Below are positions 3,974-16,682 of a stretch of DNA of 64,000 nt, piece after piece (positions within the stretch are counted from its first letter, which is position 1; the number at the start of each line of letters is the position of its first letter). Below the pieces are notes generated by a model, which ran no database searches, was not told the DNA's origin, and saw nothing but the letters and a program-made list of their open reading frames with translations. This DNA comes from Fistulifera solaris (lineage: Eukaryota > Bacillariophyta > Bacillariophyceae > Naviculales > Stauroneidaceae): positions 1 to 64,000 of the forward strand of contig AP026129.1 in NCBI GenBank assembly GCA_030295235.1. The letters are read 5' to 3'. Made by a program: the position numbers and the translations under genes.

Positions 3974-5251
3974 CTAATCCGCGTACCCAACCATCACGCA
4001 TTTCACTGACTTCTTCTCCAACTTGGGCTGTTTGTTTCGTAAAGTCACATATCCGATCCGCCCCCACTGAACCAAGTGTTTCAGTATCTTAGGATGCTCG
4101 CCGTACCACGCATAATCAGGGCTCGATTCCACATTCCGATTCGGGACAGCGTTATCCAACTTCGTTGCCGTGTGAACAGCCTCGGGCCATAACTTTCCTT
4201 GATGCTCATCCGACAACTTCGCCGCCAACATCATCGCAAGGGCCTTATCGCGAATTGTCGTGAACTTCCTCTCAACAACACCGTTCATCTGCGGAGTATG
4301 CGGGGCAGTAAACTCCATAGTTATGCCCCTCGCCTCACAGATCTCCTTGAATGTTCCGTTCTCGCCTGCATTATCACACCGAATGTACTTTACGATTACG
4401 TTCGGATCTCCTTTCAAGCGATCAAGAAATAGCGTCATGACTTTGCCAATCATCGACTTCTTTGTAACGAAGTAACTCCAAGCTTTGCGCGTGTAATCAT
4501 CCACCAATAAGATCCAGTAGCAACTCTGTCCCAACGATTTCTTGTAGGGCCCACTCGTGTCCACGTAGAATCGTTCTCCTTTCGCCGTTGCTTTGATAGC
4601 CGTCGACTTGCACACCGCCTTTGCTTTCGCCTTCGCATACGCGCACGCCTCGCATGTCTCCTTGGTTCCAGTTAACTCGATTCCCAACTGTTTCATGAGA
4701 CTCTTCAAAGGAATGTCGCTTGCGTGTCCGTACATATCGTGCGCAGCATTTATGTCCATCTTCACTTTGGTCTCCACCGCATGGACATCTGACTTAACAA
4801 CGCTAGCCTTCAAGTAGTATAACCCATAGTGTGACTGAGGTACCGTCAACACACTCTTTCCGGAGGGGTCAGTGATCTTCATCGCACAACTGGTTATCTC
4901 AATCTTGCACCCTTGCTTCACTAAAGCCCCAGTACTGATAATATTCTTCGCGAACGTCGGCGCCACCTTGACTTCACTCAACTTCATAGTACCACCCACA
5001 GTAGCGAGCATGAGTGTACCCTTCTTGTGTACTTGGACTTCCTTTCCGTCACCGACGACCAAATACTCCTTCGTCGAAATAACATCGCGCAAAATCGTTT
5101 CATCCACAACAACATGGCACGTCGCTCCACTGTCGAGAAGGAACCTTTCCTTGTCTTTGACTCTCGACACTTCGACCGCGCCAACTTGATGAACGACGCC
5201 ACAGAACTCTTCGCCGCCTTTGCCGACCTCATAGCACATGCCGACGAACAT
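3974..5251 (-). pseudogene. copia protease and integrase region
   Basis: An uninterrupted frame of 425 codons. The protease active-site motif DSGATCH lies near residue 41. A GAG-pre-integrase HHCC-type finger (HDMYGH ... CEACAYAKAK) precedes the integrase core. The core has the D,D,E triad in FYVDTSGP, RCDNAGENG and MNGVVERK. It continues upstream in frame through the zinc knuckles, so it was part of a Gag-Pol polyprotein. The stop near 3974 separates it from the RT half, and the expected joining frame is lost between about 3856 and 3974. It is marked pseudogene because the polyprotein as a whole is broken. Confidence 0.9.
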
Positions 5252-5264
5252 GTTCAGGTCCTTG

Positions 5265-6138
5265 TTCTCCGACTTCGGATCCTTGCCGTTCGACTTGTCC
5301 GGACACTCGCGAGAGAAATGGCCTTCCTTGCCACAGTTGAAGCAGACTTTCTTCTTGTCGCTCTTGCACTCCGCTGCCTTGTGTTCTTGTTTGCCGCAGT
5401 TGCGGCACTTTCCTTGAACTTCTTCTTAAAACCACCCTTGCCCTTTTCGACGTTTAATGCTAAATTTTTATTTTCTTTTTTGTCTTTTTTCTTTTTCTTC
5501 GCTTTTCTTCATCGTTCTTGGGCTTGAAACAGCGCTTCCACTTGTTCCGGATCTCCTTCTCGAGGTCTTCAATCGAGGTCTCGTTGATCTTTCCGCTCAA
5601 CTTCGTGATCACATCCGAATACTCGTCAGGAAGGTTGGCCAAGTAGTGGGCCTTCAAAACTTAAACTTGGCTTCACATACCGCGATCCGATTGTCTTCAA
5701 ACGATTCTGCAACCGATCGCACTCCAGGAAGAACTTGTCAGGGTCATCTTCCTTCGACGCCAACTTGCACCGTCCGAACTCCCGCCAACACTTCCCGCCA
5801 AATCTTCCTCGCTGTTCCGGGCTGCATTTAGCATCCAAAAGCTTGAATGCGCTCTCTCGCATCGCCATCCGCTCTCTTGACAAGACCCAAAGGAACGCCT
5901 TCGCACGCTAATCACCAACAAATCGATGATCTCGAGATTGCTTCGATACAACTCCTTGTCCTTCGCCGCCGCCGTCGCTCCCATCGCGAACTTCCTTCGT
6001 GGGGATCTCGGCCTTCAGGTCATCGAACACACTCGTCCAACCTCTCTTCGTGATCAACGACATCGCCTTGAACTTCCAGTCATCGTACGACTTCTCAGCG
6101 ACCTTGTCGTCCAACGGGTAGAAGGTCAAAGCCCTCAT
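5265..6138 (-). pseudogene. copia Gag and zinc-knuckle region, frame-broken
   Basis: The frame opens with ATG at 6138 (MRALTFYPLDDKVAEKSYDD) and continues through pieces in different frames to about 5460. The recognisable parts are the N-terminal Gag-like stretch, a middle segment (SPEQRGRFGGKCWREFG) and LANLPDEYSDVITKLSG, typical of copia Gag. Two CX2CX4HX4C zinc knuckles follow at 5366-5407 (CRNCGKQEHKAAEC) and 5303-5344 (CFNCGKEGHFSREC). The knuckles share a frame with the protease/integrase frame but are out of frame with the preceding lysine-rich segment. An A-rich tract at 5460-5520 and a short G run near 5412 are likely break points. Confidence 0.85.
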
Positions 6139-6718: not shown

Positions 6719-6832
6719 AGACCAAAAGACACAAAACACGCAGCAAGCAAGAAGCACGCAATCGCATACACAAACAACGAAAGCGAGCTGCCGACAGCAA
6801 ATGGTGCAATAAATAAGTCAAGATTGACTTTT

Positions 6833-6858
6833 ACATTCATTCATTCATTCATTCATTG
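6833..6858. repeat. (ATTC)n microsatellite
   Basis: About six ATTC units lie immediately upstream of the kinase start codon at 6876, in its presumed 5' leader or promoter. Confidence 0.85.
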
Positions 6859-6875
6859 CAATCGGTTTTCTTAAC

Positions 6876-8172
6876 ATGGGCGCGCATCAAAGCAGAGATT
6901 CTTCCCCTCCTCCTCCGCCTGCCACGGCAGATGATAAGACATGCTCGCCTTGTTTTTTCTTGGACGGAATTGCAGAAAGAATACGCTCTAACTCAAAGTC
7001 GGATCCAATTGGCTCTCCTCTTCCTGAGACACCAGTCATTCAGAGAAGGCGACAGCAGCATCAAATAGAGGAAGCTGTGAACGATGTTCGCAATCTATTT
7101 TCGGCAAAATATGGGAAAGAATCAGAGGTGAAAGCCGACGAAGATGACAGCGTCGGCATTCACGAAGGTCCGAATTGCGAAATGGAACTGCACGGAAAGT
7201 ACGAACTTCTAGAGGCCATGGGTGTTGGATCTACATCAACGGTTCATAGATGTGTGCATCGAAGGACAGGAAAAGAGTACGCCTGCAAAATCATCGACTG
7301 TGTTCTTATTGAGGAGCGCTTTCAGGGAATGATGAGTCAATTTCAAACTGAAATTGAATTCTACGAAAGCTCAAACACCCTGGAATCATAGAGCTCTATG
7401 ATGTGTATTTGGCTGACTCGAAAATATTCATAGTCATGGAAATCATGAATGGTGGTGAGCTTTTCGAATACGTCGTTCAAAAGGGGACGCTCACAGAGGA
7501 TGAAGCGGCAAAGATTGTTCGGAAAGTCACCAGTGCGCTAGTTTACATGCACGACAACAATATTGTTCATCGCGATTTAAAACCAGAAAATCTACTTCTC
7601 AAGAGAAAGCCCCAAGGACCGGTGACGACATTGAAGTCAAAATTATTGACTTCGGTTTATCAAAGGCCATGGAAGAACCAGTGGCACAAACGTTCCTGGG
7701 CACACGAGGATATTTGGCTCCAGAGATGCTGCAGCGGCGAAATTATACAAAAGCTGTCGATACGTGGGCGCTGGGCATCATTGTCTTTGTTTTGGTTTGT
7801 GGATGTTTGCCTTTCGATGATGACTCGGCTACAGTCCCAAGTGATGACTTGGTAAGAACTAGGTTTGTCTTACGTTTTCCTAGATGGGCTAAAAATTTGA
7901 GTAAATCGGCCAAGGATCTTCTATCGCACCTTCTGGATGTGAACCCAGCGACGCGATACACAGCTGAGCAAGCGCTGAATCATCCGTGGGTCAAAGGAGA
8001 GACGGCAGTTAAGGGCAATCTCCTCGCGTCTCCAGGAAAAATTAAGAAAAGTCCTGCTTACACAGGTAGTGCTAAACCTGGAAAATACATACAAGCGGGA
8101 CGAAGAGTTGTACATCCAGGTGAGAGTCCCCTTTCTCCTGATGTTCAAAGAGTTCGCAAGAATAGTCTTTAG
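6876..8172 (+). CDS. CaMK-like serine/threonine kinase, N-myristoylation signal, two frame breaks
   Basis: Protein of about 432 residues once two one-base breaks (near 7357 and 7620, both looking like a missing base) are allowed for. The start MGAHQS matches the N-myristoylation consensus (Gly2, Ser6), suggesting membrane attachment. A Pro/Ser-rich linker precedes the kinase domain, which begins near residue 108. It has a glycine loop (GVGSTSTV), the ATP lysine (EYACKII), HRDLKPEN, DFGLSK, GTRGYLAPEM and the CAMK-type tail SAKDLLSHLL ... HPWV. All catalytic residues are present. There is no EF-hand after the kinase, so it is not a classical CDPK; a calcium/calmodulin-type or PKD/DCLK-like kinase is closer. 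The two breaks are either consensus errors or early decay of a subtelomeric gene; I cannot tell which. Confidence 0.8.
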
Positions 8173-8350
8173 GGCGGTTTTTTTATTGGGGAATAGCATT
8201 TCCATGACTATTTGTACTTTCGTTGGTGTGTTTTTTTGTCTGTGTGCCGTAGTTCCCTTGTTTTTAGGCTTGCGTTCTTGTCTATTTCAGCACCTTGACA
8301 AATTCGAAGAGTATAATTTTCCAGTCGCGTACACTCTATGGATAGTAGTT
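8173..8350. other. Kinase 3' flank before the large element
   Basis: A T-rich stretch between the kinase stop codon and the left inverted repeat at 8351. An open frame overlapping the kinase end (8069-8464) runs into the repeat and has no recognisable domain. Confidence 0.5.
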
Positions 8351-8517
8351 CCGGAGACTGCGGGAAATATGATAATTATGAAAAATGGAAATAACATGAA
8401 AATTTATTGTTTAATTCAACTGCAAAATTTCGAAAAATGGACAAACTGCTGCTACTTTACATAAAAATAGATCAAAATACGAAAAATGAGATTTTGAGTT
8501 TTTCGTGGCTGAGAACT
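8351..8517 (+). repeat. Left terminal inverted repeat
   Basis: It begins CCGGAGACTGCGGGAAATAT. The outer 52 nt and the inner block at 8477-8517 have counterparts, reverse-complemented, at 15339-15508. The about 75 nt between the two blocks is only weakly similar. Confidence 0.85.
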
Positions 8518-9345
8518 TAGCTCACGCTTACCTGGTAGCGCGGTTTCAGCGTTACTGGAGTCGAATGAGGCCGTCAGTCCGCTGCCGATGCCTGTGACGT
8601 ATATACGGACCGACGACACAAGATTGGAAAACCTTGAGCCGAGTCGAGCAGTCGAGGGTCCAAACTCAAAGGTAAATAAAAATCTCGATGTTCTTATCGT
8701 CGTTGTTCACTATCATCCACATTGTAGCACATTCAGTTTCTGTGTCTTCCTGTGATTGACTGTCGAGTGCGGCGTGTGAAGTGTGAAGTCTGAAGGAATA
8801 AAGGATTATTGTACGATCTGGAGTCTGGAGTCTGGAGTCAGAAGTAGGAAGTTGCGAAGTAACACTGCCAACTGCCACGCACCATTCAAGAAATTTTTAT
8901 GTAGTAACAATGATCAAAAATAGCTTTGATTTTTATAGCCTGCCGCGTCATAAGCCCCTTCAACTAGTGCCACCTGCCGCAAATTGATTTCTGTATGCCG
9001 AATGCCGACTGCCGACTGTGAGAGAAATTGCAGTAACAATTAACAATTCAATTTGGAACGCGGTACTGTCATATGATCGGCTCGCACTCGTGACTTCTTC
9101 TATATCGTGAATAGTAGGTGGTCTTGGCGACATCGTCCTTTTCCACGCTAAGCATTACAGTCTCCATTGAGACTCTCTTAAGTAGTAGGAGAGTTTCATG
9201 GAAGAATTGCCGTTCTCGTCCTCTCTCCATCTCGCACTTTGATCGTCAACCTTCAATTATCACGAGGGCCGGGAACTCCCACAAATAATCACAAATCACT
9301 CTGGGCGCGCATTTCAAACCACAATAACAACAGATCTTATCAGCA
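8518..9345. other. Low-complexity spacer inside the large element
   Basis: No gene seen. It holds tandem TCTGGAG units (about 8818-8838), GCCGACT-type words (about 8995-9020) and ordinary AT-rich sequence. Confidence 0.6.
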
Positions 9346-10750
9346 ATGCCAAAGAAAAACGACAACGACGACGACGTTGATGCTAATCTTCCCAAATGGG
9401 GCGAGGGTACAAAGGGTTGAGACACTCTCATCTTCATGCTGAGCAAGAAGATGATTTCAGTCGAAAGTAAATCTGCTGGTGGTCAAGGACCGGCAGAGGT
9501 GAGAGCCATGAGCCCTCTCTTCAAATACAAATTGGCCAACTTTACCGCCAATCTTGATAAGATTCGGAAGAATTGGAATGGGAAGAAAAAAGAGTGGCTC
9601 AAAATCTTGGACACCAAACGGTCGACCCAGAAATTCTTGCAAAGGCCGGAGCAGCGGAAATGGGGGAAATGCGGGAAACGAAGGTGGTGGTGACGACGAC
9701 GACGATGATGATAACGGGCGATGCCGGGTTTGGGTGATCTAGACAATGAATTCGGTGGTAAGCGCTTCTTCTGCTTCTAGATTTTTTTCTTCTATCTGAC
9801 AAATTTCCATTTTTTACAGGCATGAACTTGGATCCGGAAGGTGATGCTGAGAAGAAAGCAACACCAAAGAAAGACATCAAGAAGCCAGACTCGGAAGAAA
9901 TCGTGCTGCCGGAACCTTGTGATCGGATGGATGGGTTCAAACCAGGCGCAGAATCTGACAGTTATCGCGACGCCCTTCCTGTAGGCTTTGGCGCACTCCA
10001 GCTCCAGGAAGTGGTTTGAAGAGCTACGCCACTGCTGCGACATTGAAAATTCCCTCACAGCCACAATCGCTATTGATGTGACTGACGATACTATCCATGA
10101 TCCTATCAAATTCTACAACAAATTCTGGGGTCGCTACCAAATTCGGGTACAGAGCACGTGAAAGTTGTCGGACACCACACTGCAGTCCGTCTTCTCAAGA
10201 ACAACAACCCTCGCAGTTTATCATCAAAAAGTGCCGCATCCAATTGCCTTTTGAAGTCGAACTTCAGTGGAATCCTGATATCCCGACGGTCGAAAGCAGC
10301 TGGTCATGCTCAAAATTGGAGTAGACGGTAGTCAAGAGCAATACGTTGTCATGGAGATGAAGGAAGCCCTTGCAAAGGAATTCAAAAGCCACAACGCTTT
10401 CTGTCGCATGGGATACTTGTTATGATGACGGAACCAGTAGTAGCTACTTAATGATGGAACGGCCACTGGTGCTGCGCAAATGTTCCACGCTCGGAAGATG
10501 ATGATGAAGGCGATGAAATGGACATTGACCGAGACCCCAAGAAACGCAAGTCTTACGCTGTCGGTGACCGACCGCACGTAAGAACCCACGCGACTTTGTT
10601 GACCATCTGATGAAAGGAGTTCCGGTTGAGACTGTGAATGAGACAGATGAAAAGGAGAAGGATGACGGAAAGAAGACAAAGACGGTTCCTATTGGCCAGC
10701 CGAAAGATGGCTCTCATTACAAGACTGATACGAATCACGCCACAGCTTAA
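9346..10750 (+). pseudogene. Decayed gene for an acidic, unrecognised protein
   Basis: Coding-like segments follow one another in all three frames, starting with MPKKNDNDDDVDANLPKWGE. One good intron (9758-9819, GTAAGC...TTTACAG) joins GDLDNEFGG to MNLDPEGDAEKK. Other coherent pieces are MSPLFKYKLANFTANLDKIR, RKWFEELRHCCDIENSLTAT ... DPIKFYNKFWGR, and PFEVELQWNPDIP. Near the 3' end comes an acidic/basic stretch EDDDEGDEMDIDRDPKKRK resembling a nuclear localisation signal, then the tail GQPKDGSHYKTDTNHATA. At least six frame changes, plus in-frame stops, mean it is not a working gene even allowing for sequencing indels. I do not recognise the family. It lies inside the inverted-repeat element, convergent with the gene at 10849-11491. 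Confidence 0.6.
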
Positions 10751-10848
10751 ACGCTACGAGGATAAAAGCTGATTGGCTTTGTCTAGTATATATTTCTACA
10801 ACTATTATAGTATATCGTGAATGTATTTGATGCTAGATTGCTTTATCA

Positions 10849-11491
10849 TCAAGTTTGAGGCATGCGAATATTGCGTTTGGCACCCTGAGCTAAAGGAGAA
10901 TAGAAACCGCCGTATTCTCCTTGCATTTCCAAACCTGCTGTAATCTCAGGACAGTTCCGCGCTCCCATAAAAGCAATGCGAGATCCACTCGGATACTCCT
11001 CCGCAATCGGAACAAAAGTTAGGTAGTACCGCCATTGGTAGTTTCTGCTTGTGAACATAAACAATAGAATTTGCCATTGATGTCGTCTTGAGGTCTTTGA
11101 TAGCCTTCATATGGGCGACAACCTTTGGGTGTGTTTCCGAGTAAGCAGCTTCCCGTTGTTGCGTGACACAGCACGCCAGAATTCTGCAGGCATCATCATG
11201 TACGAATTGTCCCCCTTCATCCGAATCTCAGTTTCGGTCCGAGACTCGTTAATGGAGCAATGGACATCCGCTTGGTCAACACCAGAGAGCAGAACTGTCT
11301 GCTGTGACAATCGCTTGTACTCCAGGTCTTCCCATTTGTAAAGGAGTGAGCCTGGGAGTTTGACAGGGACTTCAATGGTTCTCACACGTTCGTCGTTATC
11401 GTCGTAGTCTGGGTCGAAGCATCAAAGAAAACGGATCAGTTAGCAAGAAATTGTTGAAGCCGATCAAACAGGAACGCTACATACCAGCCAT
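10849..11491 (-). pseudogene. Broken member of an unrecognised family also present at 12572
   Basis: A 7-nt first exon (11491-11485, MA plus one base) is joined by a GTATGT...CCCAG intron (11484-11409) to an exon reading DYDDNDERVRTIEVPVKLPG. The segment KLPGSLLYKWEDL ... LLSGV ... EIRMKGDNSYM resembles KLPASLIYSWHDR ... LLSGL ... EIMIDITDSAM of the intact gene at 12572. Both then have an HPxVVAHxxKxK motif. In this copy that motif (THPKVVAHMKAIKDLKT) is read in a shifted frame between two opposite one-base changes, near 11158 and 11075. The original frame then resumes (MFTSRNYQWRYYLTFVPIAE) to a normal stop, giving about 188 residues. The two shifts cancel, so a sequence error is possible. 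Function unknown. Confidence 0.6.
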
Positions 11492-11584
11492 TATGGATTT
11501 TTTCAAGAGGACATTGTCAACAAGATGCAAGATGCAATTGAAATGAGCTTGGCCAAGGTCAACGAATCGCAGCGATTTGCATAG
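11407..11584 (+). other. Coding-like segment opposite the start of the family gene
   Basis: The plus strand reads SLGRSIKENGSVSKKLLKP, continues IKQERYIPAIMDFF and then, one frame over after a T run at 11502-11507, QEDIVNKMQDAIEMSLAKVN to a stop at 11582-11584. The composition is protein-like in both parts. It overlaps the intron and first exon of the minus-strand gene. It could be the last exon of another, largely lost gene. I do not recognise it. Confidence 0.4.
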
Positions 11585-11790
11585 TGAGTGCTTGCTGCGG
11601 GCGCACTGCTCGTGCTCGGTCTTTTGTCAAAGGAGCGAAAAAAGCCCAGAACTTGCGAAGTGTGTGTGTCTTCTGTAAAATAATAATGATGAATATCAAA
11701 CTTCACTTGGTACGCTTCATTGTTCTATGGTTATAGATTAAACAAGCCCAGTACACTGTACTAATGAGCCAAAGGAATTTTATGTTTTTT

Positions 11791-12052
11791 GTTACGTTAT
11801 GTTATGTTATGATTTGTTATGTTATGTTATGTTATGTTATGTTATGTTATGTTATGTTTTGTTATGTTTAGTTAGGTTCAGTTATGTTTTTACTACTCGA
11901 AAAAAAAGATGGTACAACTTTTGTGTAGATTCTACTCGATTCACGAGTACATTTTTCAGACACGTTATGTTATGTTATGTTTTGTTATGTTATGTTAGGT
12001 TAGGTTAGGTTAGGTTAGGTTATGTTATGTTATGTTATGTTATGGTATGTTA
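11791..12052. repeat. (TTATG)n satellite with TTAGG variants
   Basis: Two blocks of TTATG pentamers (about 11791-11882 and 11964-12052), with a run of TTAGG units near 11995-12018, are split by about 80 bp of unique sequence. Open frames reading MLCYVMLCY in this area are repeat artefacts. Confidence 0.9.
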
Positions 12053-12571
12053 TGGTATTCTTTTCTGTAATGTTTTCAGTAATAAGTTATGATTTCAGTA
12101 CAAAATGTATATAGAGAACAAGGAACACGTTGAACTGTCAATTTCTCTGTATCTTTCTAAACTAGCTTCTTCCTTTGTCATACTCGATACTCGATACTCG
12201 ATCCGTCAACATTAACGACTGATTACTGATCAAGATGCATACTCTGAGTTTCTACTGTAGCTCCATTCCCAGTTTCGCTTCCCCCTCATTCTAGTGTACC
12301 GAGTGTGTGTGTGTGTGTTGAGTGTTGAGGTGTTGAGTGATGGATTGGACAGTCTCGAGGAGGAGGAGGAGGAGTCGTCTCGAGTGTGTGTGTTTTTCGT
12401 GTGATGATGATGAGATGAAAAGGACGACACGCTGGTGCGCACTGCCTGTTGCGGTTTCCGCCATCATCATTCTTGTCACAGCTCAAATCCGATTCTCCAG
12501 TCAAGCCCAAATTCTTACGGAATCTCAGAAGCCTCACCAACTTTCAAAAATACACAAATATCACGAAAACC
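12053..12571. other. Upstream region of the intact family gene
   Basis: No gene seen. It contains CGATACT tandem words (12183-12200), a GT run with GTTGAG units (12303-12340) and a GAG run (12357-12373). It presumably holds the promoter and 5' leader of the gene at 12572. Confidence 0.5.
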
Positions 12572-13891
12572 ATGTCTGAGTTTGGCGAGAGCGAAGAGAC
12601 CGTCATTATTGAGGGGAAACTCCCCGCGTCCCTCATATATAGCTGGCATGATAGGCATGCCAATCTTCGCATTTCACAATACACAAACCTTCTTTCTGGT
12701 CTCCGTCAACGAACCGCATATGGTAGAGAAATTGTTGAATGTTGTGTTGATGAAGAAGGGACTGAAATTATGATTGACATCACGGACTCTGCCATGTTCC
12801 GCGACGATTTCTTTGTCAACTACGGCAATAGAAGCGAGGATCACCCGCTTGTCGTTGCGCATAGGCTGAAAATGAAGGAACTCAAAGGTGACAGCAAGAA
12901 GATACTGTTCTCGCATCGTGAGACTATCGAAGAAGGCACGGTCACACTGAAAAGAATGGATGATATTGATTCTCAAGCCTTCCGTATCATTAGAAGGAAC
13001 AATACATCTGGGGAAGAAACAGATACTGTTGCAGCAATTGAAATGGAAAGTAACTCTTTGAACTTTGTAGGTCAGGAGCACGGCCAGCTCAAAACACTTT
13101 CTATGCCGGATCGAATGGACACGACTCCTTCTACTGAGTCGAGCCAGGAGCCGCAAATGGCTTTGAACGAGCTATCTGTGGCTGACATGATTCAGCAACC
13201 GAACCACCAGCCTGTCTTTCAAACACTGGCACGCGATGTCACTGTAGCAAAGCAGGAACACAGCGAGGATTCTTTTATTTCTACTTTCGTGGAGCAGCAA
13301 ACTGTTGTACAGCAGCTTTCGAAAAGATCCATTGTAAGCTCGGGTGGCTCACTAACCAAAGCCCTTGTGTCGGATGCGTCTTATGAGATGAGCCGCAAGG
13401 TCAAAAGCCGCGGCCGAGATTCAACGTTCGACCAGACTTGGACGGATTCACAAAAGAAAACAGCAGACCAGCTAGTTACATCCGAAGTGCATGGCAACCT
13501 ACCTGGGACAAACGACGGACTGATGTCAGCATTCAACGAGAATATGGGTGCTTGGTATACCATCAAGATAGGAGAAACAGCAGAGATACCAAGTGTTGCA
13601 GCAAGACTCGCGAATCTCCGCCCTACCCGACCATCATCTCTCTCAAGGGCGATAGCTGCGATACCAGCTAATCCTTCAGATGACGTAGCTGAACAAGCAT
13701 TGGCTCTAAATCAAGTGCCAATTGACGTGGAAATGAATTACGAATCACTGGGAAAACGTGATTTTGAATTTTTCAGTACGAGTGTTGACGCTGGAAAGGA
13801 ACCGAGGCACGGGGGGGAGATTGTTGTGTACGAGGGCAACCAAACTTCAAGTAACCTTGTTCACACTGCCAAGAAACCGAAAAGCCCTTGA
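12572..13891 (+). CDS. Intact member of an unrecognised protein family (inside the inverted-repeat element)
   Basis: Single-exon protein of 439 residues. I chose the ATG at 12572 (MSEFGESEETVIIEG) rather than upstream starts because it aligns with the start of the broken paralogue at 11491. The first about 120 residues form the shared region: KLPASLIYSWHDR, LLSGLRQR, EIMIDITDSAM and HPLVVAHRLKMKE. The remaining two thirds are polar, Ser/Thr/Gln-rich and probably largely disordered. No catalytic motif, zinc ligand or membrane segment is visible. It is convergent with the transposase, with about 140 bp between the stops. A DNA-binding or transposition-accessory role is possible from position only; nothing in the sequence proves it. 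Confidence 0.75.
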   Translation: MSEFGESEETVIIEGKLPASLIYSWHDRHANLRISQYTNLLSGLRQRTAYGREIVECCVDEEGTEIMIDITDSAMFRDDFFVNYGNRSEDHPLVVAHRLKMKELKGDSKKILFSHRETIEEGTVTLKRMDDIDSQAFRIIRRNNTSGEETDTVAAIEMESNSLNFVGQEHGQLKTLSMPDRMDTTPSTESSQEPQMALNELSVADMIQQPNHQPVFQTLARDVTVAKQEHSEDSFISTFVEQQTVVQQLSKRSIVSSGGSLTKALVSDASYEMSRKVKSRGRDSTFDQTWTDSQKKTADQLVTSEVHGNLPGTNDGLMSAFNENMGAWYTIKIGETAEIPSVAARLANLRPTRPSSLSRAIAAIPANPSDDVAEQALALNQVPIDVEMNYESLGKRDFEFFSTSVDAGKEPRHGGEIVVYEGNQTSSNLVHTAKKPKSP

Positions 13892-14031
13892 TTCGCACCT
13901 GTAATCCTTGAGGAAGGCACCCACCAAGAACCAAAAATCTGAAGAAGAATAAATTGCGCGCCTATTCTCATTCATTCGATTAAAGTTTGCATGCTATAGG
14001 TTAATTGAATGATATTTATCTACTTTAGTGT

Positions 14032-14962
14032 CTACTTCGGTAGAGAGTTGATAGGGTTATCGGTTTTTAGTCGAAGCTGTACAACCGATGCAACTGCTCG
14101 GAAGTAATAAACATGCCGTTTCAATTCATGTCGGAATTGCTGGCGCAGACATCCAAACCGCTTAATTCGTTGATTTACGTTTTCATGACGCGCCAAAGCT
14201 TTTCCAATCAAAATCAATTTCCCTTTCTGATGACCACGATTTTTTATTGTCAGCTGGGAGATCGAACGATAGCCTTGGTCTGCTATTCCTTTTTCACCCT
14301 TCGAAAGCTGACCGGCAAGGTTTCGTCGAAAAATCTTTGAATCAGGAAATTCCCCGCAAGGAAAAGGGCCATTGATCCAGATCATTTCACTGTCAAAAAG
14401 CGAGACAGCAATTTCATAACGTAGTCCGGCGCTTCTGAATTTGTGCGAATACCATTTGGGCGAAAACGGACTCGGTTCGTTAATCGGACAGTCAGTCCCA
14501 TCAACCGAAAATGTATGAATACCAGATTTCGTTCGGCTGTTCCACTTTATCTATAAGAAAACATATTGTTAGCGATATACAAAGTGCAACAGGTAATCAG
14601 CGCAAAAGACTTACCAATCGAGTAGAGAGCAATGCCAGTGCAGTGATAAACTGGTCGGACCACTTTCGAAAGGTCTTTTCATCGCATCCGGCCATGCCAC
14701 TTAAAACTTCCTCTGTTGCATAAACTTTCAATTTCAGTAGGGCCCAAAGCAGATGCTTGAAGCGTCCATTCTCAGGGACTTTCAATAAGATCCACAGCTG
14801 AGAGCATTGTGTTGGCGATACGCCAAAGTGCGACATGAAGCGTCGCGTTTGAACCAAAGTGGGCTTGTAGCTGCGCATGTCCAGCGACTCGCCCATTATG
14901 AAACACCCACTTCTCAAGAACTCTCTAGTCTGATTAGAAGAATAATTAAACTGTATCTTCAT
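14032..14962 (-). CDS. DDE-superfamily (PIF/Harbinger-like) transposase
   Basis: Two exons (14962-14615 and 14550-14032) joined by a 64-bp GTAAGT...TTATAG intron give 288 residues with no break. The N-terminal half has a helical, Trp-containing segment (SPTQCSQLWILLKVPE ... DEKTFRKW). The catalytic half has SVDGTDCPI (first Asp), GEFPDSKIF (second Asp), the ADQGY box and ALARHENVNQRIKRFG with the candidate Glu. The arrangement fits the DDE_Tnp_4 group, which cuts and pastes DNA. Frame, intron and motifs are all intact, so it may be active. It reads outward-to-inward from the right inverted repeat at 15339-15508. Confidence 0.85.
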
Positions 14963-15338
14963 CGTAACTTGATGATCCAATCACCAAGAAAAATTCTACT
15001 TGTTGACAGCTGAATGGCTGAATGTGCGAGAGCGTGACAAATCGCAACTTTCTGTTTGTGTGTGTACGGAGTCGAGGACTCTATCGCCAAATGTCGTTGC
15101 CAGTTGCCAGGATGGTGGCATTGTCATATATGTGCTTGTGTATCGTTTCCACTGTACTTTGTAGGCTCCACGCTCCACGCTGCACGATTTTTTCAGCACT
15201 ACGAACCACGACTGAGGTCAGGATTTCAGTCTCTGTTGTTGGTCCGTATGACCGTCTCGTACTTGGTACGTAGCACGTAGCACAGTACTGCACCGGCAAC
15301 TGCAGTGTGCAATTTTTCTACAATCTCTGCGAATTCAG
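14963..15338. other. 5' flank of the transposase inside the element
   Basis: No gene seen. It contains GTACGTAGCACGTAGCAC-type short tandem words near 15268-15287. The transposase promoter should lie here. Confidence 0.5.
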
Positions 15339-15508
15339 AGTTCGCATCCAGGAAAAATTCAAAATCGCATTTTTTGTATTTTTTCTGTTTTTTAAAGAAA
15401 AATCAACAGTGCGCCTTGATTCAAAGGACATTTTACAGGTACATCAATGCCTATCTTTTTCGTGTTATTTCCAGTTTTCATAGTTATCATATTTCCCGCA
15501 GTCTCCCG
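15339..15508 (-). repeat. Right terminal inverted repeat
   Basis: Read on the minus strand it begins CGGGAGACTGCGGGAAATAT. It differs from the left end at four of the first 52 positions. The inner block at 15339-15379 pairs with 8477-8517. Confidence 0.85.
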
Positions 15509-15757
15509 ATACAATTAGCAAGAATGTAAACTTTCTCTTGTTTCAATACCGTTCTTTCACAGTAAATACCATAGCATTCGAAACAGCAGCGCCTGGGCAT
15601 GCAGTGAACAGTGGGCAGTGGGCAGCGCATTCGATGATTGTCTTGCTTCGATGATCTATTGACATTGACCCGTCCCATTCCTTTTGAGTCATCTAAACAT
15701 CCATACCTGGTACCTGGTACCTTTCCTCATTGAGAGCACTCTGCACGAGATAGATTA
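15509..15757. other. Spacer between the element and the methyltransferase gene
   Basis: A short unique region. An ACCTGGTACCTGGTACCT tandem word lies at 15707-15724, one of several GTACC-rich clusters in the gene-free spacers of this window. Confidence 0.5.
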
Positions 15758-16682
15758 ATGAAAATGTCAAAAGTATCTTCCGGAGCTTGGATAAAATCGT
15801 TTCCTTATGATACAGACTATTGTGATCACTTCGAAACGCCGCGGCAAGCTTACGATGATATTGCTCCTATTTTAGACATGTTATTACTGTCCACGCAAAG
15901 ACCTAGCCGTTCGAAAATAACAATTTATGATCCTTATTTCTGTGATGGCCGCGCTGGAAGAATTCTTCGTGAACTAGGCTTTCAAGTGCAGCATGATATA
16001 AGGGATTTTTACAAAGATATACAAAACGGTGAAATTCCTCATCATGATATTTTGGTAACAAATCCGCCTTTCTCCGATCAGCATAAGAAGGTAAATTACA
16101 TGAGCAACTGCTGTATTTCTGTCTTTCAAGTCTTACAATCGCTTCTGGACCTTCGTTTTACAGAAGTGCCTCGAATTCTGCTTCGCGCAACTTCGAGGCC
16201 CGACAAAGCGCCCATTTGCGATACTCATGCCCAACTACGTCGCAGCGCGAGAGTATTACAAGAAGCTTCTTACACAACAGAATAATAAAGAAGATGTCGT
16301 TTATCTCATTCCGGCGACAAAGTATCATTATGACCATCCCGATGGAACGGGTAAAGACACTCCGCCGTTTGAGAGTTTGTGGTTCATTGGTGTCAACGTA
16401 AACAGAGATTGGAATAAAGTTTTTTCTCGTGGGAAAATAGCGGAAACACTGAAGGCTTTATCGACTTGGAATGATTCATTCAAAAGGATTTTCCAGAAGC
16501 GACCCAATCCAAAGCAACGGAAGAAAAAGGGCAAGAAAAGAACAATTGAGCTCGGAACGAACGCAGTATTTGATGTGACTAATCCCCAACCCGTCGAACC
16601 CTCACAAACCGCTTCCAATCAAAATCGAAAGAAAAGTAAATATCGCGATGCAGCTGGTGTGAGGAAACAGGGCCGATTTTGA
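15758..16682 (+). CDS. NPPF-motif SAM-dependent methyltransferase (N6-adenine type, target unknown)
   Basis: Two exons (15758-16090, 16164-16682) with a 73-bp GTAAAT...TTACAG intron encode 283 residues. The fold begins ETPRQAYDDIAPIL. IYDPYFCDGRAGRILRELGF looks like the cofactor-binding strand and loop (motif I region), and HHDILVTNPPFSDQHKK contains the NPPF catalytic motif (about residues 104-107) used to methylate an amino group on adenine. The intron falls directly after the NPPF helix. The C-terminal 80 residues are basic (KQRKKKGKKR), suggesting nucleic-acid binding or nuclear import. The substrate, DNA or RNA, cannot be told from sequence. It is not an MT-A70 (DPPW) protein. Confidence 0.75.

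Follow-up and report, generated by a model that had tools for sequence, protein, structure and literature searches.

Evidence for a recently mobile Harbinger-type DNA transposon with its own accessory gene family in a diatom genome

Canonical PIF/Harbinger transposons, as described by Han et al. 2015 (PMC4482050), carry a DDE_Tnp_4 transposase and an extra open reading frame (ORF) between terminal inverted repeats, and produce 3-bp target-site duplications. The same text, from 2015, described the function of the extra ORF of Harbinger-type transposons as unknown. Harbinger-like elements have been reported from the diatom T. pseudonana (PMC2806351). Here we describe an element of the same general anatomy in a stretch of 64,000 nucleotides of Fistulifera solaris (contig AP026129.1, positions 1 to 64,000), called the window below. 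It occupies positions 8354-15505 (7,152 bp) and is flanked on both sides by CCG (8351..8353 and 15506..15508, unstranded). A DDE_Tnp_4-type transposase was found, as were terminal inverted repeats with a short (0-3 bp) target duplication, the features by which Harbinger/PHIS elements are recognised. In the open literature searched, which did not extend to Repbase, there was no prior account of this element family.

The left terminal inverted repeat (8354..8520, plus strand) and the right one (15339..15505, minus strand) match in two blocks. Comparison of the ends gives 94% agreement for bases 1-49 and 86% for bases 121-164 against 124-167. Over 53 nt, the outer arms (8350-8402 and 15457-15509) are 92% identical. 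A sequence-only reading of this DNA had proposed inverted ends 7.1 kb apart at 8351-15508 with a second matching block further in. Both observations hold, and that interval is the element with one CCG on each side.

The assembly containing the window (51.7 Mb in 61 contigs, the window lying on C10) was searched with the left end. All eight matches fall at the two ends of four elements: the window copy and those at C8:935233-942295, C6:1898786-1905895 and C35:50139-57246 (7,063, 7,110 and 7,108 bp, respectively). The ends of the three further copies are correctly oriented and about 7.1 kb apart. The sequence-only reading had named as support the finding of several copies with common ends that enclose the transposase and are bordered by short duplications, and this is what was observed. 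A search with the first 17 bases as a pattern gave 28 matches with at most two mismatches, compared with 5 for the reversed control pattern. All ten perfect matches are ends of five elements, namely the four copies and an older, divergent element (C8:729649-736472, 6,824 bp; L048:3150-9973). Among the 18 imperfect matches (one with one mismatch, 17 with two), which were not inspected singly, no further convergent pair was observed, and the same pattern revealed no non-autonomous copies. The flanks of the four copies are unrelated. The copies differ pairwise by 4 to 7 substitutions, or 0.07-0.13% of nominally 5,467 bases, with one accessory gene, a microsatellite, and insertions and deletions (indels) excluded.

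The joined flanks of all five insertions match related sequences on other contigs, and none of these five matches carries the element. The joined flanks define the homoeologous contig pairs C7/C8, C9/C10 and C34/C35; the pair C5/C6 rests on thinner evidence, 87 bases of the left flank. The paired contigs suggest an allodiploid host genome. Four of the five empty-site matches cross the junction (identities 84, 85, 87 and 69%). The occupied sites have the flank pairs CCG/CCG (window), CTG/CTG, CAG/CAG (older element), CAG/CGG (C8:935230-942298) and CTG/CAG (C35:50136-57249). Thus the outer C and G of a C-N-G triplet are kept at all five sites; two pairs are equal and fit CWG, one is CCG/CCG, and two are unequal. 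Clean 3-base gaps were observed at the empty site of the older element, which has TAA opposite CAG/CAG, and at that of the C35 copy, which has CAG opposite CTG/CAG. At the empty sites of the C10 copy (CCG, on C9) and the C8 copy (CAG) a single triplet was read by eye in the alignment, the aligner having placed its gaps elsewhere. In the alignment for the C6 copy the left side ends with CTG and the right side is unalignable. The four junction-crossing matches fit a 3-bp C-N-G target duplication. This was not part of the sequence-only reading, and it differs from TWA.

Cut-and-paste movement follows from the anatomy of the element taken together with the empty sites. Very probably, the element moved recently as an inverted-repeat DNA transposon with its gene set included. 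The near identity of the copies, and signs of consensus error in them, could also be expected from segmental duplication or an assembly artefact. However, the identity ends at the inverted repeats, the flanks are unrelated, the homoeologues lack the insertion, and these ends recur in the older element, which is independent and divergent. Because of the homoeologous empty sites above all, we reject this explanation, whose probability is close to nil. A point against the transposon reading is that two of the five flank pairs differ at the middle base (CAG/CGG at C8 and CTG/CAG at C35); both empty sites have CAG. Later mutation of two of the four copies, at 0.05-0.1% divergence per copy, would have p from 5e-5 to 2e-4. 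Consensus error is also a possible source of the unequal pairs.

The transposase gene (14032..14962, minus strand) consists of exons 14615-14962 and 14032-14550 separated by an intron at 14551-14614, and encodes 288 amino acids (aa). The product matches PF13359 (DDE_Tnp_4) with an expectation value (E) of 1.6e-8 and 34.8 bits, the cut-off being 24.8. In an alignment of five transposases from this genome the catalytic residues are assigned to D133, D207 and E239; a spacing of 31 residues separates D207 from E239. The frame is open in the window copy, as the sequence-only reading had maintained, and in the C6 copy; it is interrupted in the C35 copy. A sequence search of PDB gave no credible match (best E 0.24).

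Three candidate accessory genes accompany the transposase. P490 (12572..13891, plus strand) encodes 439 aa from its ATG, and its N-terminal part is homologous to P189 (E 1e-8 and 1.2e-7). P189 (10849..11491, minus strand) has a main exon at 10849-11408 and a proposed exon 1 at 11485-11491, predicted from sequence only; the intron contains a branch-point-like CTAAC. By these similarities P490 (12572-13891) and P189 (near 10849-11421 on the minus strand) are paralogues, in agreement with the sequence-only reading, which had seen two members of an unrecognised family in the interval. The gene for an acidic protein (9346..10750, plus strand, the 3' end being an estimate) has an intron at 9758-9819; in the window copy its frame is closed. 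The second half of this protein resembles P189 (E 1.3e-5, probability 81%; tblastn E 7e-5), which probably makes it a third paralogue. The reading of the locus as a recently mobile Harbinger/PHIS-type transposon with its own accessory family stands; the separation of the acidic protein from that family probably does not.

The remaining parts of the interval include a pentanucleotide microsatellite of the ATGTT type (11745..12109, unstranded), whose length differs among the copies. Within P490, 22 nt at 13753-13774 match the inner end block 15352-15373 in inverted orientation at 20 of 22 positions, possibly by chance.

At both ends of the older element the first 15 bases are identical to those of the four copies, and it contains relatives of all four genes in unchanged order and relative orientation. 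Thus a divergent cousin with the same gene set is added to what the sequence-only reading had described. By tblastn, the transposase is 87% identical in exon 1, and 88 and 78% identical in two frames of exon 2, which is hence interrupted. The corresponding values are 39% for P490 (408 aa), 62% for P189, and 53-63% for pieces of the acidic protein, whose exon 1 is likewise split between two frames. The ratios of nonsynonymous to synonymous substitution rates (dN/dS) were estimated by our own Nei-Gojobori script on hand-chosen stretches (for P490 the N-terminal part, for the acidic protein its second half), and are rough: 0.06 for transposase exon 2, 0.12 for the P490 stretch, 0.19 for P189, and 0.09 for the acidic stretch. 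The dN values range from 0.09 to 0.28 across the compared stretches of the four genes. By this comparison all four genes are under purifying selection in these stretches, and it is mainly for this reason that the accessory genes look like working parts of the element.

We propose the following mechanism. The spliced DDE transposase would recognise the two-block terminal repeats and excise the element, which would then insert at C-N-G sites with a 3-nt stagger, giving rise to the 3-bp duplication. The acidic protein, P189 and P490 would share a domain, and all three would be accessory proteins. The acidic protein, composed of an end-binding helical head, an acidic linker and the shared domain, would substitute for the Myb-like partner, whereas P189 and P490 would assemble with it and bring the transposase to the ends. 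That the Myb-like partner has given way to the acidic protein with its paralogues is a tentative inference, as are DNA binding, assembly and recruitment; it draws on the position and conservation of the genes, the lack of a Myb match, and a 64-aa piece of the acidic N-terminal part that is predicted to be helical (mean predicted local distance difference test score, pLDDT, 76). This piece lacks the W-G start of the domain.

Several observations weigh against the element as a complete working system with such partners. As assembled, each copy has at least one of its four genes interrupted. Open frames are seen for the transposase, P490 and P189 in the C6 copy, and for P490 in the window copy. 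P189 is frameshifted in the window copy by two indels relative to the C35 copy and is open in the C8, C6 and C35 copies, the acidic frames being longest in the C35 copy. In the older element the frames of transposase exon 2 and acidic exon 1 are interrupted, and the dN/dS comparison covers hand-chosen stretches in which synonymous sites are saturated (dS 1.5 to 2.6, and infinite for transposase exon 1). The acidic protein matches P490 poorly (E 0.0019, probability 14%), and the transposase has a helix-turn-helix match that does not reach the cut-off. The accessory proteins have no credible domain match in Pfam or NCBIfam; in PDB, sequence searches gave no credible match (best E 0.59 for P490 and 2 for the acidic protein, none for P189), and Foldseek found no match for the helical 64-aa piece. 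The structure model of the P490 N-terminal part is unreliable (mean pLDDT 34.5). The function of the accessory proteins is suggested by analogy.

Pfam searches at E up to 10 gave no Myb/SANT match for any accessory protein, in line with the sequence-only reading, which had seen no Myb motif in the partner. The sole Myb-like match is MADF (E 0.12, below the cut-off), and it lies within the DDE part of the transposase. The matches of accessory proteins below the cut-off (ParE_like, SKA2, ARM_TT21_4th, Pneumovirus_M2, CDC45, DMP1, PDDEXK_3, AcrIIA4, XXXCH) were judged to be due to chance. In viral contigs, pattern matching selected two stretches for transposase exon 1, six for exon 2, 35 for P189 and 159 for the acidic protein, and tblastn gave no relative in any of these cases; P490 had no match.

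These results bear on two other explanations of the accessory genes. One is that the element is an ordinary transposon of NuwaI type and that its Myb/SANT partner is the acidic protein, changed too far to be recognised. The predicted helical piece in the N-terminal part of this protein would agree with that, as would the 3-bp C-N-G duplication, which is close to the CWG of NuwaI (PMC4482050). However, the CCG of the window copy departs from CWG, there are three accessory genes rather than one, none of them has a Myb/SANT match even at E 10, and NuwaI is reported from animals only in the same source. We consider this explanation unlikely. The other possibility, a serious one though short of probable, is that the accessory proteins act outside the transposition reaction, for instance against silencing by the host or in its regulation. 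Other transposons are known to carry anti-silencing or chromatin genes, among them Harbinger-type elements with SET or TET/JBP genes (PMC12730594), and no domain match contradicts such a role. Retention of the gene set under purifying selection in two divergent elements is compatible with both roles.

The differences between the copies are concentrated in the acidic gene. Between the C10 and C35 copies there are 29 substitutions and 20 indels in region 9300-10600, compared with two and none, respectively, in region 8353-9300; none of the 20 indel runs is a multiple of 3. Excess differences in this gene are seen in the window copy and in the C35, C8 and C6 copies. After merging, the events lie within three bases of CG in 30 of 35 cases (C10), 20 of 25 (C6) and 8 of 11 (C8), compared with 40% expected (p 3e-8, 5e-5 and 0.03, respectively). 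Nearness to GC is raised as well: 24 of 35, 15 of 25 and 7 of 11 for C10, C6 and C8, against 39%. CG content alone fails to explain the focus, as the CG density of the acidic gene is not above that of the rest of the element. Long-read consensus error occurs at methylated CG. Such error is the preferred source of the differences, the alternative being a focused mutation process. Mutation similar to repeat-induced point mutation (RIP) was rejected, since many of the differences are indels. The gene had been called decayed in the sequence-only reading; this is correct for the sequence as it stands, but the apparent decay may be in part an artefact of consensus error.

A stronger version of the proposal would be a separate Harbinger-type lineage that combines a three-paralogue complex replacing the Myb partner, transfer of the middle base of the donor site into the new C-N-G site, and an accessory gene that is the focus of CG-linked change. 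Such carry-over of the donor base would account for the two insertions, out of five, that have unequal duplications. Taken as a whole, we consider this combination improbable.

Seven more distant transposase matches were found elsewhere in the genome, and the open frames at each of these loci were read. The single-copy candidate element L050:3915-9380 encodes a transposase 37% identical to that of the element described here and is flanked by GTC/GTC; its ends form a candidate 15-bp pair resembling the ends of our element (GGAGCTACCCGAAAT). One of its genes resembles the acidic gene by eye. However, profile comparison links the two poorly (E 0.032, probability 1.6%), a second such comparison gave nothing, and in reciprocal genome searches neither acidic protein retrieves the other, so that the kinship of these genes is a suggestion. 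Neither an empty site nor a second copy of L050 was found in the assembly. The transposases of L051, L052 and L053 are 31-33% identical to ours. L051:4258-9825 (5,568 bp) is a Harbinger-like element with long inverted repeats, CAG/CAG flanks, and a partner with W-x-NS-x-AR repeats, for which comparison with the acidic family gave no match (E 0.18). In general, L051-L054 have related transposases but a different partner gene, recognised by eye, beside them.

The host is identified as a diatom by 23 silicon-transporter matches in the assembly; 14 control genomes contain none over the cut-off and a weaker match in one. The left flank in the window contains a host gene similar to protein kinases (6828-8172, plus strand) and, farther out, a frame for a retrotransposon-like polyprotein in which zinc knuckle and integrase-like motifs are visible (3974-5425, minus strand). 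The right flank contains a host gene whose NPPF motif resembles that of adenine methyltransferases (15734-16682, plus strand). All three were recognised by eye.

The element appears to be a natural case in which a set of three related proteins has taken the place of a Myb-like partner and has been maintained by selection in two divergent elements of one genome. As recent copies and empty sites are present in one assembly, the required role of the partner is testable by swapping or dropping genes, and the element could yield a transposon tool for diatoms.

With described systems, as presented in PMC4482050 and PMC12730594, the following comparisons can be made. Canonical PIF/Harbinger elements (PMC4482050) have TWA duplications, a Myb/SANT second ORF and a mean length of about 4.1 kb, whereas the element in the window has C-N-G duplications and no detected Myb/SANT domain, and is longer. 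NuwaI (PMC4482050) shares a DDE transposase of the same superfamily and a 3-bp duplication that starts with C and ends with G; in NuwaI it is CWG. However, the middle base may be C in our element (CCG/CCG), and two duplications are unequal. Further, the second ORF of NuwaI encodes a Myb/SANT protein, in contrast to three accessory genes in which Pfam detects no such domain. NuwaI elements average about 4.5 kb, have ends GGG and come from 16 animal genomes, whereas our element is 7.1 kb long, its ends begin with GAGACT or GGAGACT, and its host is a diatom. PHISTA (PMC12730594) is likewise of Harbinger type with non-Myb accessory genes, but has TA duplications and TET/JBP genes, which were not detected here. 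HarbingerS from the same source also has a non-Myb accessory gene, but it is a SET gene, a domain not detected in our element. ISL2EU combines an AT duplication with a YqaJ partner, of which Pfam finds no match here; Spy inserts into AAATTT with no target duplication, unlike the 3-bp duplication of our element; and Pangu has ANT rather than C-N-G. Since non-Myb accessory genes, CWG duplications and Harbinger-like elements of diatoms are already known, the element is a variant within Harbinger/PHIS.

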